A DNA stretch of 64,000 bases from a virus. Both the position numbers and the translations under genes were made by a program. Under the pieces are notes generated by a model. The model saw only the letters and a program-made list of their open reading frames with translations. It searched no databases and had not been told where the DNA came from. This document shows positions 44,833-62,764 of the stretch, piece after piece (position 1 is the first letter of the stretch; every line of letters starts with the position of its first letter). The DNA is taken from positions 1 through 64,000 of IMG/VR virus record IMGVR_UViG_3300029787_005452, one strand, 5' to 3'.

Positions 44833-44837
44833 AATAT

Positions 44838-44865
44838 ATTTTATATTATAAATTTATTATTTCAA
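44838..44865 (-). promoter_or_regulatory. Sigma70-like promoter TTGAAA-N16-TAAAAT
   Basis: It lies in the only sizeable gap inside the glycan cluster and ends 5 nt before the ATG at 44832. Confidence 0.6.
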
Positions 44866-45845
44866 GTGTTATCCTGCATTACTCTGAGTATATGAGTTGC
44901 CCTTGCTTCAGTGGTACCTACATTTAATAACCATTTCATTTGTTCATCTAAATAAAACATATATTCATCAGTAGGTTTATTATTTACTACCAATCTATTT
45001 GTAATTTCATCTAACTCTTCCTTGGACGAATACCATAAGCAAGGTATACATTGTGGTGAACATGTAGCTGCTTTTAAATTATAATCTTTAAATAATAAAA
45101 CAGATCTAGCTGCAATAATTTCATAATGTCTTAAGCAGTCCCATCCTCCTTTTTTGCATGTAAGTCCGAACCACGATTTATTTAAATCATTATAATAATC
45201 TTCTTCAACTGTAAATTTATGATGAGAAAAACCTCCCCCTAGATCTTTTACCTCATTAAAAATAGCATTATCTGGTGCAGTCTTTTGATATAACTGTTCT
45301 TTTTTAGATACATCAAACTCCATAATTCTATGTTTAGGTATACCAAAACCCGTAGGGTATACATCTTCTACCTTTTCAATTAATTCTCTCTTGAATGACT
45401 TTCTAAATTGCACACCAATAACATTTAATTCTTCTTCACCTTCTTTTATATCAATTTTTCTTGGAGCATCACCATGTAAATCATGACCATCTAAAACCCA
45501 TACATTACCATTAGCAAGTTTGTTTAATTCTTTATCAGTGCTTTCACCATACATATGACCATCTCCATATAATATAGCATCAAATTTATCAAGGTTACGC
45601 TGTTCTTGAGTTAGATCTTTAATTGGTTTTGTTAATAAGCTAAAACCTCTACCATGAAGACCATCTTTAGGTGACTCAGAAAAATCATGGTACATTATTT
45701 TCTTTTTTGGGTAATCGACACAATTTTCTCCCATGATAGTTCTTAAACCGTTTAATATACCAACTTCAAGTAAATCATTTTGAGGTCCAGGATTTTTAGT
45801 TGGTACGAATAAAATTTTATAATTATTATTTTTCATATTTTGCAT
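44862..45845 (-). CDS. Glycosyltransferase-like protein
   Basis: A 327-residue protein. The C-terminal half contains FGLTCKKGGWDCLRHYEIIA, the G-W-(D/E)-(T/C)-x-R-x-(Y/F)-E pattern seen in phage and bacterial glycosyltransferases with a GT-B-like donor domain. The N-terminal part holds AILYGDGHMYGES and VLDGHDLHGDA. Donor and acceptor are unknown. An ATG at 45836 is an alternative start; the gene overlaps the formyltransferase gene by 20 nt. Confidence 0.65.
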   Translation of the reverse strand: MQNMKNNNYKILFVPTKNPGPQNDLLEVGILNGLRTIMGENCVDYPKKKIMYHDFSESPKDGLHGRGFSLLTKPIKDLTQEQRNLDKFDAILYGDGHMYGESTDKELNKLANGNVWVLDGHDLHGDAPRKIDIKEGEEELNVIGVQFRKSFKRELIEKVEDVYPTGFGIPKHRIMEFDVSKKEQLYQKTAPDNAIFNEVKDLGGGFSHHKFTVEEDYYNDLNKSWFGLTCKKGGWDCLRHYEIIAARSVLLFKDYNLKAATCSPQCIPCLWYSSKEELDEITNRLVVNNKPTDEYMFYLDEQMKWLLNVGTTEARATHILRVMQDNT

Positions 45846-46518
45846 TTGTTAAAAATAGTTTTGAACCATTTTTGCATTTTATATATGCATTTGGGTATGG
45901 ATCTTGTAGCCCTATTATTTTATTAAAAATTTGTTCTGCGGTAAAATATTTAAAATCTGATAAATTTATTTCACTTTGTTTAGGGGTTCTTCTTTTATAA
46001 TAACTACCTTTCTCTTTTTGAACGATAAATTTAAGTTCATCATCTTTAATTAGATCTAATATAATTTTTTTCAATCCTCTCACCCCTAAATTAGTAATTT
46101 TTTTATATATGCCGTTTAAACCTGATAATTTAACTTCTTTTAAATTGAATTCTTCTTGATATATAATTGGACCTTTATCTAACGATTCATCCATTTTAAA
46201 TAGAGTTATACCAGATTTTTTCTCATTATTAATTAATTGATTTTGTAATGGACTACCACCTCTATATAATGGTAATAAAGAAGGATGCAAACATATGCAT
46301 AAATTATTATCTACTATATCTTTTTGTATAATATCGCTCCACCCTATAAAAAATATTATATCAAATTTATCTTTTTTTAATAAATTGAGAAATTTTTCTT
46401 GTGTATTACATCTTATAAATTTAACATTATCATATGAAAATGTAAATTCAATTTTCTTACAGATTTCATCAGACCAATCCCTATAAGAACATAATAAGAC
46501 TTTTTTTAATCCACCCAT
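45826..46518 (-). CDS. Sugar N-formyltransferase-like protein
   Basis: A 230-residue protein with the formyl-transferase N-domain: LHPSLLPLYRGGSPLQNQLI, GITLFKMDE and LDKGPIIYQ with the catalytic Asp. In the usual N-x-H-x-S-L-L-P motif the Asn two residues before His is replaced by Cys (ICLHPSLLP), which may alter activity. It overlaps the PIG-L deacetylase gene by 13 nt: removal of an N-acetyl followed by N-formylation would give a formamido sugar. The second domain is short, so a sugar and not a tRNA substrate is likely. Confidence 0.8.
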   Translation of the reverse strand: MGGLKKVLLCSYRDWSDEICKKIEFTFSYDNVKFIRCNTQEKFLNLLKKDKFDIIFFIGWSDIIQKDIVDNNLCICLHPSLLPLYRGGSPLQNQLINNEKKSGITLFKMDESLDKGPIIYQEEFNLKEVKLSGLNGIYKKITNLGVRGLKKIILDLIKDDELKFIVQKEKGSYYKRRTPKQSEINLSDFKYFTAEQIFNKIIGLQDPYPNAYIKCKNGSKLFLTNAKYEK

Positions 46519-47129
46519 CTTAATATTTGAAATGATTCTGCATTTTTGTAATTAGATTGCACTCCTCTCATTCGAGCTATTAATTTTAACATTTCTGGAC
46601 TTCTATGACCTCTTACTTGAGATTTTAAAAACTTATATGATTTTATTTTATCATCAATATCAATTGGTACAAAATAATTACCTTTGAATGTACTATTAAT
46701 ATCATGGGTATAGTCCCATAAAAAGCTATGTACTTCTTCATACGCTAAAACCTTTTTTACAAAATGATTTTCATCATGATGTCTTAAAGCAACTAAGCTT
46801 GCATCATATACAGTAACGTGATCTTGATTATATGAAGGATATGGTATAAAAATTTTATCAGGTTTAATTAAATTAATTTGCTCTTCAATTTGATGTATTA
46901 AATCTCTAATCGCATAATTATTAACTCTGTTATCAAAAACTTCAAAAGTAAATTTTTTATATTTTTGTAAATCTTTTAATTCTTCTATTCTTTCTTCCCT
47001 ATTTACTACATGAAATTTATCTACACCACATTCCATTACATGAGCATTATCATGTAATGCGCAGTAACAACCTAATACTTCATCGTCAATATGCGGAGAT
47101 ATTATTAATGTTCTTTCTTTATTACTCAT
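46506..47129 (-). CDS. PIG-L/LmbE-family N-acetylsugar deacetylase
   Basis: A 207-residue protein with ISPHIDDEVLGC (the zinc-binding H-x-D-D motif) near the N-terminus, FIPYPSYNQDHVTVYDA with the second His, and a long loop between. The family removes acetyl groups from N-acetylglucosamine-type sugars. It overlaps both the GT2-like gene upstream and the formyltransferase downstream, so it probably provides the free amine for formylation. Confidence 0.88.
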   Translation of the reverse strand: MSNKERTLIISPHIDDEVLGCYCALHDNAHVMECGVDKFHVVNREERIEELKDLQKYKKFTFEVFDNRVNNYAIRDLIHQIEEQINLIKPDKIFIPYPSYNQDHVTVYDASLVALRHHDENHFVKKVLAYEEVHSFLWDYTHDINSTFKGNYFVPIDIDDKIKSYKFLKSQVRGHRSPEMLKLIARMRGVQSNYKNAESFQILRWVD

Positions 47130-47850
47130 ATTCTACAAAAATTTCTCGACCACCAATTAAGCTCGAACTTGATGGACCAGCTCCTTCAGCATCTGGTTTT
47201 ACATCCAATATTGATTCACTCCACGTTTGCCAGCTATCACTTATATCTTTTCTTTCTTTTCCTAAAAATTGATCCCAATGAAAATATTCCTCATCTGGTA
47301 TATGTTTTACTATCCTATGACCTTGATCGGTATATTTTTTTAACCAAAAAGGAGTCGATTGATGGCCGCCTGGTACATTAAGATGTGATTTCCAACTTTG
47401 ATCATATTCTGCTTCATGACCTTCATATATACGTAAGTTAGCAATTTTTAGTCTATAAACCCAATCCCTATCTTCCCATCCACCGTTAATAAATCTTTCA
47501 TCCCACCAACCAATTTTTCTAACTAGTTCTTTTGAAAAGGCCATAAAAGCAACACCCCAAAAAGTTGTCCATGCATAACCATTTTCTAAATGTTCAATCA
47601 TTTTTTCTACTTCTTCTGGTTTAGGAAAAGTTCTATCATTTATAAAAAATACCCACTCAGTTGGTGATGTAACTATAGAATGATTAATTAGTTGAGAATA
47701 CGATGGGTATATACCTGGGTGTCTATCTATTCTATTATTCCAATGTACTTTATACTTATCGGTTATAGGTTTAAGCATTTCAATCTGCTTATCAGTGACC
47801 TTTCTATCACTTCCACAGTGCAAGCAAATAGTAAATTCTTCTATTTTCAT
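47122..47850 (-). CDS. Glycosyltransferase, GT-A (GT2-like)
   Basis: A 242-residue protein. YPSYSQLINHSIVTSPTEW and VFFINDRTFP give the nucleotide-binding half; FINGGWEDRDWVYRL gives the ED-x-D acceptor motif of GT2 and GT7-like enzymes. No membrane segment. It is part of the overlapping transferase run. Confidence 0.75.
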   Translation of the reverse strand: MKIEEFTICLHCGSDRKVTDKQIEMLKPITDKYKVHWNNRIDRHPGIYPSYSQLINHSIVTSPTEWVFFINDRTFPKPEEVEKMIEHLENGYAWTTFWGVAFMAFSKELVRKIGWWDERFINGGWEDRDWVYRLKIANLRIYEGHEAEYDQSWKSHLNVPGGHQSTPFWLKKYTDQGHRIVKHIPDEEYFHWDQFLGKERKDISDSWQTWSESILDVKPDAEGAGPSSSSLIGGREIFVEYE

Positions 47851-48656
47851 AATGGATATTTTATACTATATTCTTCAAATCTCCAGGGTTGCCCTCCAGC
47901 AAAATGTCTATAAATTGTTTTTTCAGGTGTTGTTCTATTAATGTCATATGTATTAGGTTTACCTATTTTATGGTCTCCTGTTTCTTCATAAAGTTGAGTT
48001 ACATTCCATTCTGTTGGTAAAACTTGAACATTTTCTTTTAATTCCTCTAATGAAAATAATGTATGTTCAGTTGGGTAAGAATGAAAACCTAAGTTTTCTA
48101 TTTCATAAAATGATTTCCAACTATGAGGCTTAATACCTGCACATGTATAATACATTTGCTGATCTGCAATATGCCATTTGCCTTTTTCATTATTATGCTC
48201 ATTAAAAAATTCATAGTTACTTACTTTAAGCCATCTCTCTCTATTAATAATTGCATTAATTAATTTTCTACTAAATTCATTAATTTTTAATGCAAAAAAT
48301 CCAAAACAATGTGTATTTCCAGAATCTATAGCGTAAGTAAATCCTTTATCTACATCTATAAATTCATCCATTTTATTTATAAAAATATCTGCATCATAGT
48401 TATAAATTACATCGCCATCTTTTAACGAACCTTTATCTAAAAGATCTTTAAAAAGCATCCACCTGTTAAAATGCATATTTTCTCTTTGATCAAATTCAGG
48501 ATGCAATGTTCTAATATTAAAATTAGAATGATTCATTTCAATAAATTTTAGACCATGCATCTCAGCATATTTTTCAAAACGAGGTCTAATATATTTTTCA
48601 TACATGGCCTGTCTATGCGGGTCATATAATACAAATGTAGTTAAAAATTTTTTCAT
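47847..48656 (-). CDS. Glycosyltransferase, GT-A fold
   Basis: A 269-residue protein with FNRWMLFKDLLDKG and VIYNYDADIFINKM, the DxD donor-binding motif, and a later HIADQQMYYTCAG. The order resembles GT34-like or capsular galactosyltransferases. It has ATGA overlaps on both sides. Confidence 0.72.
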   Translation of the reverse strand: MKKFLTTFVLYDPHRQAMYEKYIRPRFEKYAEMHGLKFIEMNHSNFNIRTLHPEFDQRENMHFNRWMLFKDLLDKGSLKDGDVIYNYDADIFINKMDEFIDVDKGFTYAIDSGNTHCFGFFALKINEFSRKLINAIINRERWLKVSNYEFFNEHNNEKGKWHIADQQMYYTCAGIKPHSWKSFYEIENLGFHSYPTEHTLFSLEELKENVQVLPTEWNVTQLYEETGDHKIGKPNTYDINRTTPEKTIYRHFAGGQPWRFEEYSIKYPL

Positions 48657-49399
48657 AATAAGTTCATATATTTTTTAGTATGACCTTGGAAGTGTAAACC
48701 ATAAAATTCGACTTCTTTATTATTATAATTAATACCAAAAACTTTATTATCAATTTTTTTTAATTGTTTAATTTCATTTTTCATTTTAAATTCATCTTCA
48801 ATGTTATTTTTAGACATACCTATACCTCTATCAAATACACCACCTTCTAATTTATAAAGATTCTTATTACTTTTATACCAATGGTACATTAAAGTCATAT
48901 CGCATATACCCCCTCCCGTCTGGGTAGATACATGCCATTGCCATTTAGGCATTAATATTTCAATATTTTTTTTATACGTTTCAATTAAAAAATTACAAAA
49001 GTCTTCTATACCATTTTTTGTCCATATCGAATTGTGTATACATACTATATCATCAAACCTAGATTGATCTTTAGGTTTACAAGCAACGCATAATTCATCA
49101 TCTAAAATTTTTTCAAAGTCTAAAAATTTAAGAAATATTGCATCAGTATCACACATTAAAAATTTATCTATTTTGTTTTCAGTTGCATATTTTAATGCTG
49201 AAAAATATCTATAAAAACAAAACCTTTCAAAGTATTCAGCATTATAAGACATATGTTTATAAACTGAATCAAATAATGGAAAATTATTATCTTTTAATCT
49301 AACAATATTTTTAAAAATTTTACCATTTAATGATAAACTTTTTTCAAGATAATCAACATCATTCGGCTGATAATAAAATAATGGTAAATCACTTTTCAT
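48653..49399 (-). CDS. Glycosyltransferase-like, DxD protein
   Basis: A 248-residue protein with RFCFYRYFSALKYATENKIDKF (abridged) preceding LMCDTDAIFLKF, the DxD motif, and STQTGGGICDMTLMYHW as candidate acceptor loop. C-terminal YGLHFQGHTKKYM fits GT-A enzymes that act on short glycans. It overlaps the exostosin-like gene by 11 nt. Confidence 0.68.
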   Translation of the reverse strand: MKSDLPLFYYQPNDVDYLEKSLSLNGKIFKNIVRLKDNNFPLFDSVYKHMSYNAEYFERFCFYRYFSALKYATENKIDKFLMCDTDAIFLKFLDFEKILDDELCVACKPKDQSRFDDIVCIHNSIWTKNGIEDFCNFLIETYKKNIEILMPKWQWHVSTQTGGGICDMTLMYHWYKSNKNLYKLEGGVFDRGIGMSKNNIEDEFKMKNEIKQLKKIDNKVFGINYNNKEVEFYGLHFQGHTKKYMNLL

Positions 49400-50252
49400 C
49401 TTGCAAATATCTTAAAATTGTTTTACTCATACCTTCCATAGTAAAATATTCATTATATACTTCTTTACCCCGTTTAAGCATATTTTCTATATCTTTTTCA
49501 GAATAACTTTCTAGTTTACTCTTCAAATTAGGTATTTCATCCTCATGTATACAAACAGCAAACTCAGACCAATCAATATATTTTTTGAAAGGAAACCATT
49601 CAGGGTTGTAAATAAATACCGGTATACTACCTAATTGCATTACTTCATAAAATCTAAAACTTTGTTTACCATAACCACGTGGACATAAAGAAAAAATTGA
49701 TCTTTGAGTAGTATAAATAAATTCTTTCAAATGATCATTTTGTACTTTATCAGTCCACATTCTCGGCTCATTAAAATAAAAACTATTATCATCATAATAA
49801 GTTTTATATAATTTAACTCTAGCAGATGCATTATGAGATATAGTACCAACAAAAGAACAGAAAATATCTTTATTCACTTCTTTAATAAGATTTTTTTCTA
49901 TAGGGCTACATATTAAAGGTAAAGGTATACCATTTTTATTACCACCTGCTTCGAAGCTCAAAGTACCAGGGGGGAGTATTTCTTGTACTGCATCATCATG
50001 TTGCGATACTGTAAAATATTTTTTATCTTTCGGTAACCAATTTAAATATGGTTGTAATAATTCTTTGTTTTTACTCGTAATATATACACTTGTCCAATAA
50101 ACAGGAATATAGGTATAACCTGTTTTATCGAACGTATCCTTATGGTTTTTATAAAACTTATAAAAGTATTCTTCTAAGTAATCACCTTTGTGATAAGGTG
50201 GATACGTAGGATAGTCTGCTGGTACTCTTAAATTTTTAAAATTAACTTCCAT
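49389..50252 (-). CDS. Exostosin-like (GT47) glycosyltransferase
   Basis: A 287-residue protein with FTVSQHDDAVQEILP, DIFCSFVGTISHNA, RSIFSLCPRGYGKQSFRFYEVM (abridged), LGSIPVFIYNPEW. SLCPRG...R-x-x-E-x-x-x-x-G-x-I-P-V is the exostosin C-terminal signature. It likely adds a sugar to a growing glycan, with unknown donor. Confidence 0.8.
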   Translation of the reverse strand: MEVNFKNLRVPADYPTYPPYHKGDYLEEYFYKFYKNHKDTFDKTGYTYIPVYWTSVYITSKNKELLQPYLNWLPKDKKYFTVSQHDDAVQEILPPGTLSFEAGGNKNGIPLPLICSPIEKNLIKEVNKDIFCSFVGTISHNASARVKLYKTYYDDNSFYFNEPRMWTDKVQNDHLKEFIYTTQRSIFSLCPRGYGKQSFRFYEVMQLGSIPVFIYNPEWFPFKKYIDWSEFAVCIHEDEIPNLKSKLESYSEKDIENMLKRGKEVYNEYFTMEGMSKTILRYLQDEK

Positions 50253-50940
50253 TTATTCTTTTTCTAACTATATCTAAAATTTTATACTTATCATCTTTTG
50301 TACGAGTCCAGTTACCATGGTGTATAAAAATATTATCTGGTATTGGAAAAGTTTCATCTGTATTAAACCAATGACCTTTTAAACCACCTTTACCGTCTGG
50401 TTGACCTGCTATGTGTCCGTAGGTCCAATATTCATCAGGTAAAACTGCCCATTTAATTTGTATCGATGGAAAGTTATGTAGGTTGCGTAATAAATAATTT
50501 GCAGTTCTTTGTTCTTCTTCAAATTTAGTTAAATTACCTAATACAGTTTTAAAAAATGATCTTGTAGTTTTATTATTTCTAACGCAGAAAAAACCAGTAT
50601 TGACTCCACCTGGTCCGTCATTTTGCCATACAACGTCTTTACCTTCCATCCTTTTTATAATATCATCATAAAAATCTCTGTATATTACTATATCAGGATC
50701 TATAAACATAAAATATTCTTTTTCTTCATCACATCTTTTTAAATTTTCATAAAAGCATGAAGCTTTATATTCCATAGTAGCATTCCAGCCATCAGTACCA
50801 AACTCTGCAGTATCGCAAAGCTGTGGTTTATTAATAATAGTTAAATCTATATTTGGGTTATATTTAAAAGAATCTAAAAGATATTCTTTTAAAAACTTTT
50901 CATGCGAGGGGGTAAATAAAGTATATGCTTTAATTTTCAT
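50242..50940 (-). CDS. Nucleotide-diphospho-sugar transferase-like protein
   Basis: A 232-residue GT-A protein: ATMEYKASCFYENL, FMFIDPDIVIYRDF (DxD-like DPD), GPGGVNTGFFCVRNN, and a conserved HHGNW near the C-terminus. It resembles GT77-like transferases. It is co-transcribed with 11-nt overlaps. Confidence 0.75.
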   Translation of the reverse strand: MKIKAYTLFTPSHEKFLKEYLLDSFKYNPNIDLTIINKPQLCDTAEFGTDGWNATMEYKASCFYENLKRCDEEKEYFMFIDPDIVIYRDFYDDIIKRMEGKDVVWQNDGPGGVNTGFFCVRNNKTTRSFFKTVLGNLTKFEEEQRTANYLLRNLHNFPSIQIKWAVLPDEYWTYGHIAGQPDGKGGLKGHWFNTDETFPIPDNIFIHHGNWTRTKDDKYKILDIVRKRINGS

Positions 50941-51700
50941 TATTTAAAATCTTTCTTTCTAATTGTAGCTCATTTTCAAAAGGTTTCCACCATAATATAT
51001 CATTTACAGTTTGTCTTTTAAGTAAAACGTTTTGAACAAAATTCCACCATCTACTCATTTCAGGTACTGTCTGTGCAATATTAGTATTATGCTGCTCATA
51101 CTCATCTGTATCTTTACATGAAACAGAATCATGTTCTATGTGAAAAATTACTGGTGGTTGTTTATTTAAAATTTTATATTTACTATTTATTACCGATATA
51201 ATAAAAAATACTGTATCCCAATATGGTTTACCCAAATAAAGAAAAGGAAATTTATATGAATTTTTTACCCACCAATCTCGTTTAAAAGCAAAAAGATCAA
51301 AACCATGTACACTATATGATTGTATTTTAAGTTCTTCATCTAAAGAATTAAGTTCATGTAAATGACCTCTACTTGCTGGATATGATTCAATATCATCTTC
51401 AAGTTGTTTAAAGAATGTATTATTTAAAACTATATCGTTGTTAATAAAAACAATTAAGTCATTATCTGTTTTTGATAATGCGTTTAGTAGATCGTTTACG
51501 AAGGGATACTTACCTTCTTGTTTAATTTTTATAGTTTCAAAATCATTAAAATTTATATCATCTTCATCAGATATAATATTATATAAAGTAACATTATCGT
51601 TTTTATCTTTACATTTTCGTAAAGATTCTAAACATAATTCTTCTCTTCTACTGAGATCTTTTTCATTTTTAAAACTATTGATTCCTATTGCTATTTTCAT
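50930..51700 (-). CDS. GT2-like glycosyltransferase
   Basis: A 256-residue protein starting MKIAIGINSF, with LIVFINNDIVLNNTFF (the DxD-like N-D-I) and GFDLFAFKRDWWVKN. The N-terminus matches its neighbours at 51675 and 52442 (K-I-x-I-G-I), so the three probably arose by duplication and divergence. Confidence 0.75.
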   Translation of the reverse strand: MKIAIGINSFKNEKDLSRREELCLESLRKCKDKNDNVTLYNIISDEDDINFNDFETIKIKQEGKYPFVNDLLNALSKTDNDLIVFINNDIVLNNTFFKQLEDDIESYPASRGHLHELNSLDEELKIQSYSVHGFDLFAFKRDWWVKNSYKFPFLYLGKPYWDTVFFIISVINSKYKILNKQPPVIFHIEHDSVSCKDTDEYEQHNTNIAQTVPEMSRWWNFVQNVLLKRQTVNDILWWKPFENELQLERKILNNEN

Positions 51701-52445
51701 AAATTTTACTTTTTACTTCTTCCTTAGATAATTTAGGGATAGTTTGAATATTATCATGATGTTTATCGAAAAACATTTTATATTCAGCTGAAAGTTTTTT
51801 ATCTCTTGCCCCACCCTCATTAATTCTTGTTTCAGTTTCAGGGTGATTCATAATTAAATCATCTGAATTTTTTATATCTGGAAAATACCAAAATGCTGGT
51901 ATATGTTTAGTTTTTGATATTCTATATACATTTTCTACATCAAAAATATATCTAAATTTATTATCATAAAGACCGGTATCATTTAAACATTCTTTAGTTT
52001 TAAAAGTAAATTCATTACACATATTAGGATATAAACCGACTGATACATCTTTACTATATTGTAATTCAACTGCAGGTGTCCTATTACCAGGTTCACCCGA
52101 ACCCCAACTGGTACTTGCAAAACAAAAATAACCTATTTTACTCTTTTCAGCTGCTTCAATATATTTTTCAAATATATCTGGATCTTTAATAACCATATCA
52201 TCTTCTAAAGTAATATAATAATCACAATCTCTTTCTTGTAAAAATCTTAGATTATCATTTCTACAAACTGAGGGATAATAATTTTTTTTATGCTGTATCC
52301 AATGTGCATCTTTATAATTACCTTTGTAAGGTTTACCTCCGTTAACTACTACTAATTCATCAATTTTATCTAAAGGTAAAGAATCGTAAAGATCCTTAAA
52401 ATAATGCTCTGCATTATATGTTGTTATACCTATACCTATTTTCAT
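51675..52445 (-). CDS. GT2-like glycosyltransferase
   Basis: A 256-residue protein: IGIGITTYNAEHYF at the start, YYPSVCRNDNLRFLQERDCD, then YYITLEDDMVIKDPDIFEKYIEA (abridged) with the EDD motif, and a C-terminal charged tail. Clearly paralogous to 52442-53209. It overlaps the next gene by 26 nt. Confidence 0.82.
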   Translation of the reverse strand: MKIGIGITTYNAEHYFKDLYDSLPLDKIDELVVVNGGKPYKGNYKDAHWIQHKKNYYPSVCRNDNLRFLQERDCDYYITLEDDMVIKDPDIFEKYIEAAEKSKIGYFCFASTSWGSGEPGNRTPAVELQYSKDVSVGLYPNMCNEFTFKTKECLNDTGLYDNKFRYIFDVENVYRISKTKHIPAFWYFPDIKNSDDLIMNHPETETRINEGGARDKKLSAEYKMFFDKHHDNIQTIPKLSKEEVKSKIYENSNRNQ

Positions 52446-53209
52446 AATTCTTTAAAATATTTTATTACACTATTAATATCATCATATTGTTGGTTAGCGT
52501 TTGTTACATCTATATTAAATTTATTTTTAAACCTTTCAACCCCCTCTTTAAAATGTTTTAACCAATCACCTTTTCTTATTGTTGATTTTCCATGATTTTC
52601 ATCTTGATCATCCATGTATTGATTACTATTTTCAATATCAATAAACCATCTAAAGGGAGGGTGATATCCTTTATTAATTGCTTCCATAGTATGGTCTACA
52701 TGTTCCATAGCATTGTAATAAACTTCATCCATTAAACCTATATCTTTCAATACTGAACTGTGATAATACGAGCATGCTCCATAAACATTAAAATATAAAG
52801 CAACTTTTACACCTCTTATATCAAATATTTTTCTCGGATTAGGTTTGGCCCCATTTATTTTATTATCATGCCCGTGTAAACAATAATTAAAATGTTTAAC
52901 TTTTGTTTTTTTAGATGCTTCTATATATTTTTCAAATACATTTTCTTTAAAAACAACATCATCTTCAACTATAAATATATGTTCACATTCATTATCTAGC
53001 AAATGCTGTAATGCTTTATTTTTTGTTTTACCTACACCTAGATTTTTTTCATTATTAATTATATTTTTATTTGAATCTTGTAAAGGTATTTCACCGTCAT
53101 TAATTATAACTAATTCATCATACCAATCTTTTTTTATACTTTTAATACAATTTTTTAAAAAATTATTACGATTACACGTTATAACTCCAATTCCAATCTT
53201 TGATATCAT
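52442..53209 (-). CDS. GT2-like glycosyltransferase, first gene of the glycan operon
   Basis: A 255-residue protein: KIGIGVITCNRNNFLKNCI, LGVGKTKNKALQHLL, IFIVEDDVVFKENVFEKYIEAS (abridged), and EHVDHTMEAINKGY as acceptor loop. A classic GT2 arrangement. It begins 6 nt after a -10 element, so it is the leader gene of the 13-gene cluster. Confidence 0.88.
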   Translation of the reverse strand: MISKIGIGVITCNRNNFLKNCIKSIKKDWYDELVIINDGEIPLQDSNKNIINNEKNLGVGKTKNKALQHLLDNECEHIFIVEDDVVFKENVFEKYIEASKKTKVKHFNYCLHGHDNKINGAKPNPRKIFDIRGVKVALYFNVYGACSYYHSSVLKDIGLMDEVYYNAMEHVDHTMEAINKGYHPPFRWFIDIENSNQYMDDQDENHGKSTIRKGDWLKHFKEGVERFKNKFNIDVTNANQQYDDINSVIKYFKEL

Positions 53210-53215
53210 GATAAA

Positions 53216-53244
53216 TATATATAAATAAAGTTATGGCAGATCAA
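53216..53244 (-). promoter_or_regulatory. Sigma70-like promoter TTGATC-N17-TATATA
   Basis: It ends 6 nt before the ATG at 53209 and its -35 overlaps the first codons of the divergent virion gene. It would drive the whole glycan operon. Confidence 0.6.
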
Positions 53245-53547
53245 GTAAGCATTAAACAATTACCACAAGTAACCGAAATTAATACAGGAGATTTACTTCT
53301 AGTACAAACACCTAACGCGACAAATACATTATTATTTGAAAATTTCATTATAGGTTTAAACAATACTACGTTTTCATCAACTGTATCTGGTCAAAGAAGT
53401 GATATCGATTCTCTTTCATCATCTATTTTTAGCAACGATATAAAAGCAGTTCCTTTAACAAAAGATGATGCTTTAAATTTAAGTGGTATTCCAATAGTTA
53501 TAGGTGGTAAAACGTTCAATATTCTATTATCTGGAGTACATGTATAA
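53233..53547 (+). CDS. Small fibre-type virion protein
   Basis: A 104-residue protein. VSIKQLPQVTEINTGDLLLVQTP is the type of N-terminal attachment motif found on phage short fibres and is similar to the start of the fibre at 27762. It ends convergently 5 nt from the kinase gene. Probably a fibre attachment or structural subunit. Confidence 0.6.
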   Translation: MADQVSIKQLPQVTEINTGDLLLVQTPNATNTLLFENFIIGLNNTTFSSTVSGQRSDIDSLSSSIFSNDIKAVPLTKDDALNLSGIPIVIGGKTFNILLSGVHV

Positions 53548-54373: not shown

Positions 54374-55081
54374 ATGATAACGTTTGACGAAAAGTCTCAT
54401 ACTTACAAGTGTAGTAAGACTGGTAGAGAGTTAATATCAGCAACTACTTTAATAGGTAAGTATAAAAAGCCATTCGATAAAATGGAAAATGCAACTCGTG
54501 TAGCCAATAGAGAAGGTTTAGATGTTGAGTTTGTATTAGATATGTGGGAGAAAGAAAAGAATCGAGCTTGTGATTATGGCACTAATATTCATAAGGTTAT
54601 GGAGGACTATTTAACTGAAGGGGTAGTAGAAGAAGAGCATGAATCTTTATACATTTCTTTTAATAAATGGAATCATATCTTTAAAAAGTTTCCTACTTTA
54701 TTATGTGAAGAAAAATTACATGATTTAGATAATTTTATTGCTGGTACTGCAGATTTAATTTACGAAAATAAAACTCATTTTATGGTTGGTGATTTTAAGA
54801 CTAATAAAGCATTTAATTTCTTCTCTCCTTATAATGAGTTTATGCTAAAACCAATGGACCATTTAAGTGTATGTGAATTCAATACATACGGGTTGCAGTT
54901 ATCTTTATATGCATATTTACATGAAAAGAGTTCAGGTAAAAAATGCACTGGATGTGTTATATTCTATAAGGATAAAGAAAATAGATTTTACCCTATTAGG
55001 GTCAACTATATGAAGAAAGAAATTATTTCTCTAATAGAAGATTACAATAATCCCAATTCACTATCTTCAAAAATTGATTAA
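54374..55081 (+). CDS. PD-(D/E)XK nuclease, RecB/Cas4-like
   Basis: A 235-residue protein: GTNIHKVMEDYL (the His/Glu of motif 1), FIAGTADLIYEN, MVGDFKTNKA (D-x-K catalytic core) and YGLQLSLYAYLHEK (Q-x-x-x-Y motif). This is the exonuclease domain type of RecB, AddB and Cas4. It probably processes DNA ends in recombination or packaging. It has no SD site and begins 6 nt after a consensus -10. Its 3' end overlaps the convergent SOD gene by 59 nt. Confidence 0.85.
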   Translation: MITFDEKSHTYKCSKTGRELISATTLIGKYKKPFDKMENATRVANREGLDVEFVLDMWEKEKNRACDYGTNIHKVMEDYLTEGVVEEEHESLYISFNKWNHIFKKFPTLLCEEKLHDLDNFIAGTADLIYENKTHFMVGDFKTNKAFNFFSPYNEFMLKPMDHLSVCEFNTYGLQLSLYAYLHEKSSGKKCTGCVIFYKDKENRFYPIRVNYMKKEIISLIEDYNNPNSLSSKID

Positions 55082-55643
55082 TATATTTTTCTCTATCTGG
55101 TCCATATTTCTTGTAATATGCGTGTTCCCAAACGTCAATACCTAATATAGGGGTTCCCATATTATACATTAATGGGTTATCTTGGTTGTCGGTGGGAACT
55201 ATTTTTAATTTATTTCCTCTTTTTACTAACCAAACCCAACCGGAACCAAAATGCGTTTTTGCTTGTTCCTTAAATTGTTCCTTAAATTTATCAACAGTCC
55301 CGTATTGTTTTTCCAGTAACTCTTTGATATTTCCCTTTATTGTGGGTCTATCAGGGGACATCATGTTCCAGAATAGTTGATGATTGTAAGCCCCACCTGC
55401 ATTGTTCCTTATAGCTGGTTTTTTCTTAGCTGATTTTGTAACTAATTGTTCCAGTTCCATTTTTTTAGTTCCTATAGCTTCATTTAATTTTTTTATGTAC
55501 CCTTTATAGTGTTTATTGAAGTGTAATTTCATTGTTTCTTGATCAATAAATGGTTCTAAACTATTAAAATCATAAGGTAGTTTTATGGGTTTGTACCCAT
55601 TTAATTCTTCTAAAAGTAAATCTGTTAAATTATCGTAATTCAT
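55023..55643 (-). CDS. Fe/Mn superoxide dismutase
   Basis: A 206-residue protein of the Fe/Mn SOD family: LPYDFNSLEPFIDQETMKLHF with metal ligand His41, NNAGGAYNHQLFWNMMSP with His88, HFGSGWVWLV, and GIDVWEHAYYKKYG with Asp170 and His174. All four ligands are present, so it should convert superoxide to H2O2 and O2; Fe or Mn preference cannot be told. No signal peptide. GGGAGG 5 nt before the ATG, inside the end of the preceding gene, gives a strong ribosome-binding site. Confidence 0.93.
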   Translation of the reverse strand: MNYDNLTDLLLEELNGYKPIKLPYDFNSLEPFIDQETMKLHFNKHYKGYIKKLNEAIGTKKMELEQLVTKSAKKKPAIRNNAGGAYNHQLFWNMMSPDRPTIKGNIKELLEKQYGTVDKFKEQFKEQAKTHFGSGWVWLVKRGNKLKIVPTDNQDNPLMYNMGTPILGIDVWEHAYYKKYGPDREKYINQFLKIVNWDYCNLLLEK

Positions 55644-56803: not shown

Positions 56804-58852
56804 TTATTTAGATTTAGCTCTATATACTTGATCCCAATCTTTACCTGGGTCATTTACCTTAAGATCAGCAACTCTTTCTTTCATCATATTATAATAATAT
56901 TCCAATATAGGGTTTATTTTAATGCATTTATTAAGTAATTTATTAGCCTCTAACCATTTTCTTTCTTTATATAGTTTTAAGAATAAATCATGTTGTAAAT
57001 AATCAAATTTTCCATCAATCACTGTATATACTTTTATACCTTCTTTCTTACCCTTAACAGCAATTTTATCTAATTCTATAAATTTAAATTTATTACCTAT
57101 TAGTTTAGTAGTTTCTTGACCTAATAGAATACCTACTCCATATGATTTTGTCTGACCTTCAAGTCTTGCAGCTAAATTAACACCATCCCCTAAACATGTA
57201 TAATCAAATCTTTGTTCTGAACCCATATTACCAACTACAACTCTACCAGTATTAATGCCTATACCAATTGCTAATGGTTTCTTACCTTCTTCAATTAACT
57301 GTATATTAAGATTAGAAAGTTCTAATTGCATTTTTATTGCAACTTCTATAGCTTTAATGCGATGAGATAATTGATCTTCAGGTAAAGGTGCATTCCAAAA
57401 TGCCATTAACGCATCGCCGATATATTTGTCTATTGTACCACCGGATTCCATAACTATTTGAGTCATGGGTGTGAGATATCGATTAATAAGATAAGTTAAC
57501 CCTTGAGGGTTATCTTTAAACTGCTCACTAATAGTGGTAAAACCTCTGATATCGGAAAATAATATAGTTAAGTCTTGTGTATCACCTCCAAGTTTTAACA
57601 TATTAGGATTTTTTTGTAATTTCTTAACTATTTCAGGGGCTAGGTAATGCTCAAACTGTTTTTTAATTAACATCTTACCCTTATATTCATGTATAAATCT
57701 AAAGAATATAGCTAATGTAAATACTAAAAAAGTACTATAAATTGGGTATGTAAAATCGTATAATAAATTATGAAAACTAAATAACCAAAAGCCATATATA
57801 GGTAAAGCAACTATAACTACACCTATTAGTAAACTGTTAATAACCCATAGAAACCTAAGCGCACATAGCGTCAACAGTAAGCTCAGTGCTATAGTAAATA
57901 GTATTTCATATAAGGTTGCTTCAACTGGTCTTACTAATATATTTTCATTAGCTAATGTTTCGACGACTTGTAAATTTAATTCATGACCACTACTAACCTT
58001 TATAGGGGTTGCTACTGAATTAGATAACCCTTCCGCTGTTAAAGCTATTACTGCTATAGTATCCTTTACAGAAGACCAATCTTCACTAGTTAGTGAAATT
58101 TTATTAAACTCAGTATCATAATTAATCCATACTCTTGCGTTTTCATCTGTTTCAAAAGTCCCAACATTTCTTAATCTAATAGCACTTACACCAGCATGGT
58201 CTACTTTAACCTGATACGATCTATCATCTACTAAAGTTCTTAAAATTTCTAAAGGTAAAGTTGGGTATACTTCATCTTTAACTTGTATCATTAAAGGCAC
58301 CCGTCTAACCACCCCATCAAGCTCGGGTGCAGTAACAGTCATACCCACTCCTTTAGAAAACATACCTACACTTTCAATAGGACCTATACCATTAGGGTAA
58401 TCAAATAACCAATCATTTAACTTTACCGAACCTATTGTTGTAATATTCTGTTTTACTAATACACCTTTACCTTGTAATGCAGCAGACTGAGTAGTAACGA
58501 CTGGGTAATGATATAAAATATCAGTAAAAGTTTTATCTCCTCCTAATCTATCTTCTTCAGCAAATAAGATAGGTAAAACTACTAATCCTGCCCCATGGTA
58601 ATAAGCTTTTTCTATATAATGAGCTAAGACATCTCTCTTCCATGGCCATTGACCATATTTTTCTAAACTTGATTCATCTATTTCTATAATAGTAAATAAA
58701 TCAGATTTTTTTACTTTTTGTGTTTTTTGATAATAGTCTAAACCTTTTAATCTTAAGATTTCTACAGGATAGGGGTCATATATTCTAAGTACTGAAAATA
58801 AAACTGCAGCTATAGTACAATATATGAATGGTTTGAATTTATTAAGTTTCAT
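56804..58852 (-). CDS. CHASE2-domain membrane adenylate/guanylate cyclase
   Basis: A 682-residue protein. An N-terminal membrane helix (8-25), an extracytoplasmic CHASE2 sensor (about 30-300; IIEIDESSLEKYGQWPWKRD, VSSGHELNLQVV), three membrane helices (about 313-385), then a class III cyclase domain: LTILFSDIRGFTTISE with metal Asp434, YIGDALMAFWN with Asp480, and YTCLGDGVNLAARLEG with Asn559 and Arg563. All key residues are present, so it should make cAMP or cGMP. A short C-terminal helical region follows. It overlaps the FecR-like gene by 4 nt, as the last gene of the curli-like operon. Confidence 0.95.
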   Translation of the reverse strand: MKLNKFKPFIYCTIAAVLFSVLRIYDPYPVEILRLKGLDYYQKTQKVKKSDLFTIIEIDESSLEKYGQWPWKRDVLAHYIEKAYYHGAGLVVLPILFAEEDRLGGDKTFTDILYHYPVVTTQSAALQGKGVLVKQNITTIGSVKLNDWLFDYPNGIGPIESVGMFSKGVGMTVTAPELDGVVRRVPLMIQVKDEVYPTLPLEILRTLVDDRSYQVKVDHAGVSAIRLRNVGTFETDENARVWINYDTEFNKISLTSEDWSSVKDTIAVIALTAEGLSNSVATPIKVSSGHELNLQVVETLANENILVRPVEATLYEILFTIALSLLLTLCALRFLWVINSLLIGVVIVALPIYGFWLFSFHNLLYDFTYPIYSTFLVFTLAIFFRFIHEYKGKMLIKKQFEHYLAPEIVKKLQKNPNMLKLGGDTQDLTILFSDIRGFTTISEQFKDNPQGLTYLINRYLTPMTQIVMESGGTIDKYIGDALMAFWNAPLPEDQLSHRIKAIEVAIKMQLELSNLNIQLIEEGKKPLAIGIGINTGRVVVGNMGSEQRFDYTCLGDGVNLAARLEGQTKSYGVGILLGQETTKLIGNKFKFIELDKIAVKGKKEGIKVYTVIDGKFDYLQHDLFLKLYKERKWLEANKLLNKCIKINPILEYYYNMMKERVADLKVNDPGKDWDQVYRAKSK

Positions 58853-59757
58853 TGTTGAATAATATTTATAGACACGCTACCACCTGCATTTAGAACGCCT
58901 TCAGTTATGGTACCTTTATTATCATATTTTAATGATACGTCAGAAACTGAAGGTACAATTAATTTAATTTTATTTTCATTATCAGATGTAAATGTAGCTT
59001 TATCATCTTCTATCTCAAAAATTGAGTTTTGATCATCATCTTCAAATTCTATAAATGATGCTTCTTCTAAAAAATCATCATTATTATCTTTTTCTACTGT
59101 TTCATCTTCAACGTTTTCGTTTATTTCATTTTTGATTTCAATAGTTTGATTTTTTCTATTATTATCAATTATAGGTTTGGATGGGGAAGAAAAAGTAGAG
59201 GCAACTGAAGTTACTTCAAATGCTTTAGTTAGAACTACTGAACCTATATTATTAAAAACTTCTATAGAACCAACGTAAGTATTACCATTACTATCTTCTG
59301 ACGGTAATAAAGTAAACGTACTTTCACCGGATTCTTTAACTATAACTTCAAAATCAGTACCTCTAACTGATACAGAAGCTGTAGGAGTAGTTATCTTTAT
59401 ATTTTCTTTACTATTTTTAGCAATTAAACCTGATGTATATCTTAGTTTACCGAAAGATGCTTTTAAACTTACTTTACCCTTTTTTGTATTATTGTCATAC
59501 ACGAATTCATCTATTATTAACGTTGAATATTTTGCAATAGTAACTTTGGTATCATCTACAAATATTATTTTTATATTACCGTCTAAGGTTTCTATTTCAT
59601 CATACATTTCAACTGGCGTACCTAAACCAGTTAAGTATTTTTCTGTACCTCTAGTAATTTGCCCGGGTTGAGACTGAAAAGAAACCTCCCCAACTTTAGA
59701 AAAAGCAGAGGAGGTTATAAAAACAAATACTAAAAAAAGATTAAGGACCGACTTCAA
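58849..59757 (-). CDS. FecR-domain periplasmic protein
   Basis: About 302 residues when started at the TTG inside the curlin stop region, giving a clean signal peptide (MKSVLNLFLVFVF then ITSSAFS). The FecR domain spans about 30-150: VTIAKYSTLIIDEFVYD, KASFGKLRYTSG, ITTPTASVSVRGTDFEV. It is followed by an acidic linker (about 185-255) and a small C-terminal beta domain. FecR domains are sensor or scaffold modules, often encoded beside CHASE2 cyclases in bacteria, so it may signal to the cyclase. A longer ATG start at 59814 would lie well inside the curlin gene. Confidence 0.85.
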   Translation of the reverse strand: MKSVLNLFLVFVFITSSAFSKVGEVSFQSQPGQITRGTEKYLTGLGTPVEMYDEIETLDGNIKIIFVDDTKVTIAKYSTLIIDEFVYDNNTKKGKVSLKASFGKLRYTSGLIAKNSKENIKITTPTASVSVRGTDFEVIVKESGESTFTLLPSEDSNGNTYVGSIEVFNNIGSVVLTKAFEVTSVASTFSSPSKPIIDNNRKNQTIEIKNEINENVEDETVEKDNNDDFLEEASFIEFEDDDQNSIFEIEDDKATFTSDNENKIKLIVPSVSDVSLKYDNKGTITEGVLNAGGSVSINIIQQ

Positions 59758-60526
59758 TAAATGTACCTTGTGCGAAATCAGGTGTTGGTACCGGTTGTGT
59801 ATAACTTCCATCAAAATTACTTATAGTACCAAGACCTTCCAATCCAGCAGTATAATTACCATCAGACTGTATAATTGTAAAAGTTGTATCATTACCATAA
59901 TGGGTAAGCTCTAATGTTTGGTATTCAGATCCTGATTGTACCAAGTTAAGAATATTACTATCACCTTGAAGTTGTACGATTTGGCTATGACCTAAACCAA
60001 GATTACCTCCTTCTTGAATAGATGTAATTGTATTACCATTACCAATTAGGGAAATATCTGATACTGCTGCAATATTATCATTAAGATAAAAATCTAATAT
60101 ATTACTGTTACCAATAATATAATTTTTAAGATATTGCTGAGAAATATTTGAAGCTTCAGCTGTTGTATCATCTTTCTTAATTGAAATATCGTTACCATCA
60201 CCTAATAAGGTATTAGTAAATGTATTTTGATCACCTGATACTAAAATATCTTGCTTATTACCATTACCTTCAATATATAAATCGAAATCTGTTTGATCTC
60301 CAGACCATTCAATATCTAATTCATTAGCGTTACCGATTTGAGAAATATCAAAATCACTACTATCTCCTGCAATAGTAGAAATGTCAGTTGAAGCTCCTAT
60401 TCTATTTCCTGAACCTACTTGAGTAATATCGAAGGTACCTGTTGAACCTTCTTGTTCTAAGTAAATTTCGTTATTTGCAAATGCAATAGAAGTTGTTAAT
60501 AATAATGCTAGTAATGTTGTTTTCAT
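59741..60526 (-). CDS. Curlin-like (CsgA/CsgB type) amyloid subunit
   Basis: About 261 residues with a signal peptide (MKTTLLALLLTTSIAFA) followed by imperfect repeats of the curlin pattern I-x-Q-x-G-x-x-N: DITQVGSGNRIG, DISQIGNANELD, YIEGNGNKQDI, LLGDGNDISI, IIGNSNILDF, LIGNGNTITSIQEGG, VQLQGDSNILNLVQSG, THYGNDTTFTIIQSDGN. Around eight to ten strands would stack as a beta-solenoid, as in amyloid curli. The length is greater than E. coli CsgA. It has its own TATAAATA promoter 5 nt before the ATG. Confidence 0.85.
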   Translation of the reverse strand: MKTTLLALLLTTSIAFANNEIYLEQEGSTGTFDITQVGSGNRIGASTDISTIAGDSSDFDISQIGNANELDIEWSGDQTDFDLYIEGNGNKQDILVSGDQNTFTNTLLGDGNDISIKKDDTTAEASNISQQYLKNYIIGNSNILDFYLNDNIAAVSDISLIGNGNTITSIQEGGNLGLGHSQIVQLQGDSNILNLVQSGSEYQTLELTHYGNDTTFTIIQSDGNYTAGLEGLGTISNFDGSYTQPVPTPDFAQGTFIEVGP

Positions 60527-60531
60527 AATTA

Positions 60532-60539
60532 TATTTATA
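60532..60539 (-). promoter_or_regulatory. Late-type promoter TATAAATA of the curlin gene
   Basis: Perfect TATAAATA 5 nt before the curlin ATG, in the 34-nt gap after csgG. Confidence 0.7.
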
Positions 60540-60560
60540 AAAATATAACTATAATTTTTA

Positions 60561-61352
60561 CTATTCAACAAAATTCCACAAGCCTTTTTCGTCTCCTTGT
60601 AACATTAAATCAATTATGCATGCATCTATAGCTTTTCTTGTTGCAATTGAAACTCTTTCATTTCTAGCATAACCTATTTCAGCTTCACCATAATCATTAA
60701 ATTCACCCAAACCTAATTCATCAGTATCAAAATACTTAAAAAATGTTGCGCCGGCACTAACACTTAAAATAGTTTTACTTACTGTGGATGATAATAATAT
60801 TTGACCTGAATTAACACTAACAAATCTCATTGAAACTGTCACATTATCTTTTCTATATTGTTTTTGACCACCTATACCTAAGTAACTGGCACCAATACCA
60901 CCTGATACAATATTACTTTCATATGAAATAATTCCCCCCTCGACCAACATACCAGCAAATAATAAAGCTCCTAAATCTTCTTCTTTATCATTAAAAGATT
61001 TTCTATTAGTTTTAATAATATTTCTTTCGTTAAGTAAATTAGCAAGATTAGCTCTTTCAACCACTTTAAACCATTTACTATTACCAGCTTCTATTAATGA
61101 TTCTATAACCCAAGCTTCCCCACCTTGGGTAACTGCTGATGAAAAAGATGCATAATTATCAGCTGTCTTTCTTTGACCAGTTTTATCGTCAAAAGAATAA
61201 ACTGCAACAAATATAGGAGCTTCTTTTACTTCTTTCATATCCCCTTGTTCAATCATATAAGGTGGTTTTTGAACCCATGGAGGATTTTGTACAGGTGTCG
61301 ATACACAACCTACCATTAATAATAAACTTAAACTAATTAAAAATTTTATCAT
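60561..61352 (-). CDS. csgG: CsgG-like curli secretion channel lipoprotein
   Basis: A 263-residue lipoprotein: signal peptide with lipobox LMVGC (Cys16), then a mature part matching CsgG: PIFVAVYSFDDKTGQRK, VVERANLANLLNERNII, FAGMLVEGGIISYESN, GGIGASYLGIGG, VTVSMRFVSVNSGQILLSSTVSK (abridged), TILSVSAGATFF and a C-terminus LMLQGDEKGLWNF. CsgG forms the nonameric outer-membrane pore that exports curlin. It overlaps csgF by 4 nt (ATGA), so the two are translationally coupled. Confidence 0.96.
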   Translation of the reverse strand: MIKFLISLSLLLMVGCVSTPVQNPPWVQKPPYMIEQGDMKEVKEAPIFVAVYSFDDKTGQRKTADNYASFSSAVTQGGEAWVIESLIEAGNSKWFKVVERANLANLLNERNIIKTNRKSFNDKEEDLGALLFAGMLVEGGIISYESNIVSGGIGASYLGIGGQKQYRKDNVTVSMRFVSVNSGQILLSSTVSKTILSVSAGATFFKYFDTDELGLGEFNDYGEAEIGYARNERVSIATRKAIDACIIDLMLQGDEKGLWNFVE

Positions 61353-61813
61353 GGGGTCTCAGTTGCTGCTGGTGGTATGTATAAAGAACCTATTGGTATA
61401 ATAATACTTGTAGTCGAACCATCAGTTAAATCGTTTATAGTCAAATAAATTTGATCGTCAGCAGATTTATACCATGTTATAGTACTATTCTCAATCGAAA
61501 AAGTACCTGTCTCTAATCCATCATCAGCAAATAATTGCTCTGTAACTTGTTTAGCTAATTCAGAATAAATTCTAGCCTGCAAACTTGATAAAAATGTATT
61601 TACCGCTGATCGATCTTCAGCTAATTGAGCTTGCAATTCAGCTGATTCAATTTCATCTTCTATAGCTTTTTTTCTATTAAATGAAATTTGCTCTAAAGTT
61701 AATTTATGAGCAGAATAACCAATACCTGTAAATGTCGGTGATTTAAATTGAAATACTAATTCACTTCCTAATAAAGTTAATGGAAGTAACAAACATAGAA
61801 TAATCTTATTCAT
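61349..61813 (-). CDS. csgF: CsgF-like curli assembly factor
   Basis: A 154-residue secreted protein: signal peptide (NKIILCLLLPLTLLGS) then LVFQFKSPTFTG, the N-terminal motif by which CsgF inserts into the CsgG pore, a helical middle (FLSSLQARIYSELAKQV) and a beta C-terminus (TINDLTDGSTTSIIIPIG). CsgF extends the CsgG channel and links secretion to nucleation. It is the first gene of the operon, with a perfect TATAAATA upstream. Confidence 0.9.
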   Translation of the reverse strand: MNKIILCLLLPLTLLGSELVFQFKSPTFTGIGYSAHKLTLEQISFNRKKAIEDEIESAELQAQLAEDRSAVNTFLSSLQARIYSELAKQVTEQLFADDGLETGTFSIENSTITWYKSADDQIYLTINDLTDGSTTSIIIPIGSLYIPPAATETP

Positions 61814-61818
61814 AGAAT

Positions 61819-61826
61819 TATTTATA
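61819..61826 (-). promoter_or_regulatory. Late-type promoter TATAAATA of the curli-like operon
   Basis: Perfect TATAAATA ending 5 nt before the csgF ATG, identical in sequence and spacing to those of gp21 and the gene at 938. Confidence 0.72.
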
Positions 61827-61828
61827 TG

Positions 61829-62137
61829 TTACTTTGTCTTTTTCAATAATTCTTCTTCTTTTGCTTTAAACTCTTTTTCTAAAATTTCTCTTCTTTCTTT
61901 TTCTTGAAGTATCATTTTAAGTTTAATGTTTAAACGAATCATATCGTTATCTAACATTCTAACTTTATCTATTAAACCTATAAGAGTTTTTTTAGATGAT
62001 CCAATGGTAGGAGATATTTCTTTTGTAACCCATTGCCATACATAATATACAAAATAACCTAAACCTATTGCAGCTATAATTGGAAATCCAAAGTCATTAA
62101 CTAACTTTGAAAAGTGGTCTATCATTTGATCATTCAT
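61829..62137 (-). CDS. Small membrane protein with coiled-coil tail
   Basis: A 102-residue protein: a short N-terminus, one membrane helix (FPIIAAIGLGYFVYYVWQW), then a long charged helix (KKTLIGLIDKVRMLDNDMIRL and a KE-rich end). It is the third in a row of similar small membrane proteins, and directly upstream of csgF with 15 nt between, so it may share that transcription unit. Role unknown; holin-like or structural anchor. Confidence 0.6.
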   Translation of the reverse strand: MNDQMIDHFSKLVNDFGFPIIAAIGLGYFVYYVWQWVTKEISPTIGSSKKTLIGLIDKVRMLDNDMIRLNIKLKMILQEKERREILEKEFKAKEEELLKKTK

Positions 62138-62145
62138 ATTTTTTA

Positions 62146-62403
62146 TTATTTAGAAGCGAGACCACCACCCATTCTATTTTCTAAGAATTTTTTTATTTGC
62201 TCTAGTCGTGAACGGTGTACCATAAGCGTGTCCATTTGACTACTAATTCTTACATCATGGTAACCAAGTTGTTTTTTTAAATCGTCAATTTGTATTTGTT
62301 GTTCTTGTACTATTTGAGAATATTTATTTATATCTCTATCTAATAGATAAAAAGATGTTACTACAAGTAAACCTAATACGGTAAATATTATATTTTTTTT
62401 CAT
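62146..62403 (-). CDS. Small membrane coiled-coil protein
   Basis: An 85-residue protein with an N-terminal membrane helix (NIIFTVLGLLVVTSFYLL) and a heptad-rich helix (VQEQQIQIDDLKKQL; HRSRLEQIKKFLENR). The single N-terminal anchor plus periplasmic coiled coil is like an i-spanin, but no lipoprotein partner is beside it. It starts by overlap with the upstream stop. Confidence 0.6.
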   Translation of the reverse strand: MKKNIIFTVLGLLVVTSFYLLDRDINKYSQIVQEQQIQIDDLKKQLGYHDVRISSQMDTLMVHRSRLEQIKKFLENRMGGGLASK

Positions 62404-62684
62404 TAATCTTTTCTTGCGTCCTCCTTTCCTTCAGATGCTGCTATCCTATCTAAGTTTGGTTCAACATTAAATGCATGAGATATTAAAGTATCAATTTTAA
62501 CTATTTCATTAGTCATAACATCGACTCTATTTTGTAAACTTGCTATCATTCCTCCTAGACCAGCTACACCGCCTTTTACCCCGTTTAATATAAATTTTAA
62601 AATAATAAAAATAAATACACCACCAGATAATGCCCCTGCAATAGGAAAGCCAACCTCGGTAAGAAATCTAATAAAACCACTCAT
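62403..62684 (-). CDS. Small membrane protein
   Basis: A 93-residue protein with one Gly-rich membrane segment (GFPIAGALSGGVFIFIILKF) and an amphipathic remainder. The N-terminal EVGFPIAGAL is like DFGFPIIAAI in the protein at 61829, suggesting paralogy. ATAAATA precedes its ATG, so it starts a late unit that leads through two more membrane proteins towards csgF. Confidence 0.6.
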   Translation of the reverse strand: MSGFIRFLTEVGFPIAGALSGGVFIFIILKFILNGVKGGVAGLGGMIASLQNRVDVMTNEIVKIDTLISHAFNVEPNLDRIAASEGKEDARKD

Positions 62685-62764
62685 TAAAAATATTTATTAA
62701 AAATAACATGTTGAAATATATATTATTATAAGTAAATATAAAAGATAAATAATATACCGGGGAT

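Follow-up and report, generated by a model that had tools for sequence, protein, structure and literature searches.

T4 is the textbook case of leadered late translation driven by Shine-Dalgarno (SD) sequences, and in E. coli csgBA is placed under a separate promoter. Leaderless genes of mycobacteria, Deinococcus-Thermus and phage phiYS40 place their -10 box about 12 nt upstream of AUG, lack an SD and start with AUG only. The late octamer of T4 occupies positions -13 to -6 relative to the transcription start site (PMC1524935). Among marine phages, PMC9599517 describes CsgF, CsgG, CsgA/B, FecR and cyclase in pelagiphages, while PMC7029224 and PMC9004378 describe csgF and csgG; one of these studies reports that detection of late promoters failed in pelagimyophages (PMC7029224). 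Further literature was also used (PMC2984593, PMC3037559, PMC2988020, PMC2704228, PMC5312081). Given that the same cluster content and order has already been published, the phage curli cluster is not new.

The window, meaning the whole stretch of DNA analyzed here, comprises bases 1-64,000 of a virus record of 185,197 bases (G000), and the genome hosting the curli genes is a marine relative of phage T4. Judged by its genes, the locus is one of curli (type VIII secretion), with CsgG, CsgF and curlin-repeat proteins encoded in one operon. The features discussed below are, in window coordinates:

925 to 932, plus strand: TATAAATA box, 5 nt ahead of a 56-codon open reading frame (ORF) at 938
5096 to 6838, plus strand: portal gene gp20, which encodes a virion protein and shares this promoter class, with a TTAAATA box 6 nt before its ATG
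17930 to 17937, plus strand: TATAAATA box of gp21, with a 5-nt spacer to the ATG at 17943
17943 to 18611, plus strand: gp21, prohead protease, assigned by homology
53220 to 53227, plus strand: TATAAATA box, 5 nt ahead of the ORF at 53233-53547
54374 to 55081, plus strand: exonuclease gene with TTGA...TATAAT-N6-ATG, an early-type contrast case at matching distance
56804 to 58852, minus strand: CHASE2-adenylate/guanylate cyclase (Pfam CHASE2 and Guanylate_cyc)
58849 to 59757, minus strand: FecR-domain protein (Pfam FecR PF04773)
58863 to 58870, minus strand: TATAAATA box, 10 nt before the cyclase ATG and within the 3' end of the FecR gene
59741 to 60526, minus strand: curlin-repeat protein (csgA/B-like) of 261 aa (Pfam Curlin_rpt PF07012, E 3e-4, searched with residues 1-255, P0005)
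60532 to 60539, minus strand: late-type box TATAAATA of curlin, with a 5-nt spacer to the ATG at 60526, within the 34-nt csgG-curlin gap
60561 to 61352, minus strand: csgG (Pfam CsgG PF03783, E 2e-49), without a box of its own
61349 to 61813, minus strand: csgF (Pfam CsgF PF10614, E 3e-18)
61819 to 61826, minus strand: late-type box TATAAATA of csgF, with a 5-nt spacer to the csgF ATG at 61813
61829 to 62684, minus strand: three small ORFs (102, 85 and 93 aa) preceding csgF in the same orientation, for which a Pfam search returned no match
62691 to 62698, minus strand: AATAAATA box, 6 nt before the first of these three small genes

The TTG start of the FecR gene at 59757 was placed on account of a signal peptide; the ORF tool opens this gene at 59814.

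The initial annotation of this DNA had reported perfect TATAAATA elements exactly 5 nt before csgF and curlin and had matched them to those of gp21 and the gene at 938. The coordinates confirm both placements, and the latter two boxes have the same 5-nt spacing. What the annotation had missed is that this spacing is a genome-wide rule and points to leaderless mRNAs, the more surprising aspect. Raw abundance of TATAAATA was dropped as evidence, since the 20 copies in the window lie below the shuffle mean of 28 and thus show no enrichment. In terms of position, the distance from the box to the ATG of an ORF with 40 codons or more is exactly 5 nt for 5 of these 20 boxes, where 0.06 would be expected (p = 4e-9). 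In the whole record, TATAAATA-N5-ATG occurs 16 times and the reversed pattern 0 times, and 25 of the 119 NATAAATA boxes are at N5 before ATG (0.35 expected, p = 2e-38). Counted in the same manner, NATAAATA boxes at N5 amount to 19/60 in the relative G003 (0.19 expected), 9/45 in HTVC008M (0.20 expected), 3/42 in Melnitz (0.23 expected), 0/65 in T4, 1/59 in S-PM2 and 0/38 in Syn9. When boxes within 44 nt of the nearest called-gene ATG were considered, 21 of 43 in this virus have a spacing of 5, with 6, 7 and 10 also present, and those of T4 (22), S-PM2 (16) and Syn9 (16) are almost all 13-39 nt from ATG. The reversed control is uninformative for this nearest-ATG count because ATAAATA is its own mirror image; anagram controls for the same count, and pooled across relatives, showed no peak at 5. 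Our gene calls (204 genes) were simple in-house ones made with no published caller, and in HTVC008M the start codons annotated by the depositors agree with N5 in 9/9 cases.

A scan of viral contigs with TerL yielded 108 relatives, 80 of which were kept. Among boxes within 44 nt, the fraction at exactly 5 was 50/80 at 84-96% TerL identity (SD 9%), 41/56 at 71-81% (SD 6%), 13/17 at 66-70% (SD 7%) and 14/25 at 54-56% (SD 1%), with genes sharing their first 45 bases counted once; the loci of relatives partly overlap via near-identical contigs. Judging from these counts, the N5 rule persists in relatives to 54% TerL identity and is partial in the Pelagibacter phage HTVC008M, but it does not hold in T4 or two cyanophages. 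All TerL and portal matches in cultured phages fall below 60% identity. In other T4-like phages, the N5 pattern was found 0 times in phiM9 and Atu_ph04, once in X1, 3 times in XG4 (with 1 reversed control) and 8 times in Pelagibacter phage Mosig (with 0 reversed controls). Two divergent genes of the record (118955-119371 and 119394-119774) are separated by a 22-nt gap with an N5 box in each direction, leaving little space for a leader or a further promoter; the same divergent pair is present in G003, G005, G006, G007, G016, G017, G018, G020, G021 and G022.

Allowing a spacing of 5-7 nt (4-7 nt for TTAAATA), we sorted the 204 called genes into 30 with ATAAATA, 29 with TTAAATA, 18 with TATAAT and 13 with other variants, the TTAAATA and "other" lists holding some gene-internal ATGs because any ATG within the first 60 codons was allowed. 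A PHROGs scan covered 10/30 ATAAATA, 10/29 TTAAATA (20/59 of the WTAAATA class together) and 10/18 TATAAT proteins. The scanned ATAAATA proteins included a tail tube, a tail protein and one radical SAM protein (7 unmatched), the TTAAATA proteins a portal, head-tail adaptor, tail sheath, tail tube, baseplate wedge and tail fibre (4 unmatched), and the TATAAT proteins an exonuclease, QueE, UvsX, SSB and dUTPase (2 of function unknown, 3 unmatched). gp21 belongs to the ATAAATA class and the gp55 gene itself to the TATAAT class. Box class thus follows function, virion vs. replication, in support of the virion-timing idea. A TTGA at -40 to -29 was found in 13/18 TATAAT, 6/30 ATAAATA and 1/29 TTAAATA genes (background 5.6%); with 6 of 30 ATAAATA genes carrying TTGA near -35 where about 1.7 are expected, the late/early split is imperfectly clean. 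Homologues of gp55 and gp45 are encoded, the former sharing 37-47% identity with annotated late sigma factors among the first matches; queries with gp33 of T4 and Syn9, a short and divergent protein, found no homologue in this virus or in G003. The octamer TATAAATA/NATAAATA takes the -10 position and heads virion and not replication genes, as T4-type late promoters do. As a separate observation, GGAAC precedes the -10 box by a few nt in 6/18 TATAAT-class vs. 0/59 late-class genes (e.g. window 41544-42131 and 27193-27723), and this element could be a middle-promoter box like that of MotA.

With the T4 octamer at -13 to -6, a 5-nt spacer sets +1 on the A of the ATG. SD cores at gene starts are at background both in this virus (7% vs. 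6%) and in G003 (7% vs. 6%), and amount to 48% in HTVC008M, 58% in Melnitz, 56% in T4, 33% in S-PM2 and 34% in Syn9. Downstream of the 329 [AT]TAAATA sites, N5 is followed by ATG 49 times vs. 5.8 expected, by GTG 3 times (1.9 expected) and by TTG 4 times (5.6 expected), with enrichment of ATG alone. In an unbiased count of 6-mers, TAAATA peaked at -11 in 40/204 genes (0.27 expected) and TATAAT at -12 in 16/204 (0.39 expected), so that the sigma70-like box is likewise at leaderless distance; bare TATAAT-N6-ATG, with gene starts ignored, is weakly enriched (21 vs. 13 reversed). Because SD is at background, ATG alone is enriched and TATAAT is at the matching offset, we infer that late and early mRNAs are both leaderless. 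The fixed distance between box and AUG, the lack of SD and the strong preference for AUG over GUG/UUG are the traits of leaderless genes, and messages probably begin at the start codon without a leader here and throughout the lineage. In a search of mostly open-access literature, we found no report of leaderless late transcripts in a T4-like phage. As a point against this reading, a host of the proteobacterial type would not usually rely chiefly on leaderless translation.

Taking these data together, we consider it likely that both curli elements are real gp55-dependent T4-type late promoters with the -10 box fused to the start codon, giving leaderless mRNA in a lineage-wide mode. The sequence, spacing and conservation of the boxes, the functional segregation of their classes and the absence of SD come from the analysis itself. 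In the mechanism that we envision, gp55-RNAP would use [A/T]TAAATA boxes and start transcription on the A of AUG, and the resulting mRNAs without leader would be translated by ribosomes able to initiate at a 5'-terminal AUG in the absence of SD. Late genes would follow [A/T]TAAATA-N5-ATG and early genes TTGA...TATAAT-N6-ATG, and leaderless expression would be the general mode of a deep uncultivated lineage of marine T4-like phages. The curli genes would belong to the late class, with csgF having its own late start, csgG following csgF without a box and curlin having a second start; we surmise that this second box gives curlin its own supply or extra output, similar to the csgBA promoter of E. 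coli, an arrangement specific to the clade of the window. A broader scenario, in which the whole T4-like lineage has dropped 5' leaders and SD in all temporal classes and infection shifts host ribosomes to leaderless messages, favoring phage genes (curli included) over host genes, strikes us as quite unlikely.

The start position in this mechanism is carried over from T4, and the spacings of 6, 7 and 10 also leave room for late promoters from which the gp55-RNAP of this lineage starts at another distance, e.g. with ends within the ORF or a few nt ahead of it, and yields mRNAs that are not leaderless. We regard this as unlikely, since the sharp one-nucleotide peak needs a cause (the peaks of T4, Syn9 and S-PM2 are broad), SD is missing, AUG alone is enriched at N5 and TATAAT is at a matching offset. 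The missing SD might in turn lead one to expect some other start signal, so that NATAAATA-N5-ATG would be an A/T-rich signal for translation initiation and no promoter. However, this proposal is very improbable in view of the following: 1) the box is the late motif of T4 and cyanophages; 2) it heads virion genes, and TATAAT heads replication genes; 3) it is absent from csgG (0/54) and fecR (0/51) in the same operons; 4) anagram controls have no N5 peak; 5) in other curli phages, csgF is preceded by the same box at a distance of 14-21 nt, and the intervening leader is SD-like. A generic translation signal was rejected on the class segregation and the boxless operon-internal genes.

A further possibility concerns timing, namely that the boxes can function while read-through from upstream genes transcribes curli mainly early or constitutively, in which case late promoters say little on timing. 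Such read-through would fit the position of the three small genes, immediately upstream in the same orientation, and the lack of a csgF box in many relatives; yet the small genes themselves start with a late-type box, and the list of TATAAT-class genes has no entry between that box and csgF. We deem read-through unlikely, and there are good grounds to expect that the curli genes are expressed within the late program. The predicted tie to virion-gene timing drawn by the initial annotation is partly supported, by the match to the late motif, the gp55 and gp45 homologues, a box class shared with portal, tail sheath, tail tube and baseplate genes, and the recurrence of the csgF box in HTVC008M and of both curli boxes in the clade.

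To place the curli promoters among relatives, 80 of 405 CsgG relatives in viral contigs were kept and, together with HTVC008M and Melnitz and after removal of near-copies, gave 54 loci. The csgF box lies at 5 nt in 5 loci, at 12-21 nt in 10 and at 3, 4 or 44 nt in 3, and is absent in 36; a box within 45 nt was found for 18/54 csgF vs. 0/54 csgG genes (Fisher p = 1.4e-6) and for 0/51 fecR genes. HTVC008M csgF reads TATAAATA-GTAGC-ATG, with a spacing identical to that of csgF in the window. In most loci with a csgF box at 14-21 nt, an SD-like leader separates box and gene; in L086, L089, L093, L087 and others, the same late box is set 17-21 nt before csgF and followed by a GGAGG-like leader, which represents a leadered version of the same wiring. 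The curlin box is rare outside the window's clade, being at N5 in 3/53 loci (two in that clade) and at 27 nt in 1/53; it is missing in HTVC008M and Melnitz, and csgF of Melnitz is likewise boxless. For the cyclase (37 genes), the box is at N5 in 3, at 4 nt in 7 and at other distances in 7, with a spacing of 10 in L078 and L079 as in the window. In L086, L087, L122, L124, L139, L145 and L156, NATAAATA is exactly 4 nt before the cyclase ATG, which would put +1 one base into the codon if the T4 spacing held.

Both curli boxes are present in 5/5 clade genomes found with curli (the window, G001, G002, G003 and G006). The csgF box is at N5 also in three close relatives and the curlin box is conserved in four clade relatives, with varying spacer letters and constant boxes; G001 and G003 are alike at these sites and may count as one state. 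In G006, CsgG is 50% identical and the csgF spacer is 7, but the curlin box is kept. CsgG was present in 3/18 clade records searched, all being fragments or of unknown completeness. The motif conservation upstream of csgF that the initial annotation had named as a check is therefore seen in part: N5 in HTVC008M and a box in 5/5 clade curli genomes, vs. 36/54 boxless loci including Melnitz. On a CsgG tree made by a quick method (55 rows, 3 rows with odd spacings unlabelled), the N5 state takes 3 changes and strongly supported branches force just 1, so that repeated origin of N5 is suggested rather than shown.

With respect to the host, the TTGA/TATAAT promoters and the bacterial-type late sigma argue for a bacterium; no host conclusion was drawn, and TerL found no relative in bacterial and archaeal genomes. 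An Fe/Mn superoxide dismutase gene (window 55023-55643) is located near the curli cluster, and its closest counterparts are found mostly in genomes of marine Group II Euryarchaeota (best 43-49% identity). The tRNA scan revealed only tRNA-Leu and tRNA-Asn near the end of the record. Phage-borne translation factors were rejected as the cause of the leaderless mode based on the distribution of: 1) bS21, absent in 9/9 records of the SD-less clade, in T4 and in 4 cyanophages, and present in HTVC008M, Melnitz, Mosig, G013 and G014; 2) IF3, found in 0/11 records; 3) deformylase, found in 1/11 records (Melnitz only). Elsewhere in the genome, QueF, DUF366 and QueE-like genes (window 21314-22288 and 41544-42131; G000 65935-66675) suggest a 7-deazaguanine pathway, perhaps for DNA modification, and a minus-strand run of sugar-nucleotide epimerase, glycosyltransferase and formyltransferase genes (window 42159-53209) is a probable island for surface-glycan modification.

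A box fixed 5 nt from ATG provides a simple rule for late genes in uncultured phages, curli among them. If the leaderless reading is true, diverse marine relatives of T4 have switched their mode of initiation, and both the evolution of this switch and the type of ribosome involved become testable; HTVC008M, as a cultured phage with both modes, is a natural test case.

In comparison with known systems, the promoters described here resemble leaderless expression in mycobacteria, Deinococcus-Thermus and the Thermus phage phiYS40 in the position of the -10 box, about 12 nt ahead of AUG, in the lack of SD and in the restriction to AUG, but here in a T4-like marine phage lineage with a putative gp55-type promoter. 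They share with the gp55-dependent late promoters of T4, S-PM2 and Syn9 the octamer NATAAATA before virion genes and the encoded gp55 and gp45, and differ from them in that the box is 5 nt from ATG vs. mostly 13-39 nt, SD is lacking and the TTAAATA form is common. The curli genes match the type VIII secretion cluster of pelagiphages and methylophages (HTVC008M, Melnitz, HTVC023P-type) in their csgF-csgG-curlin-FecR-cyclase content and order. In contrast to Melnitz, which has a second curlin gene between FecR and cyclase, there is none here; CsgG is 43-45% identical to that of the pelagiphage/methylophage cluster, and curlin in this virus has a box of its own.
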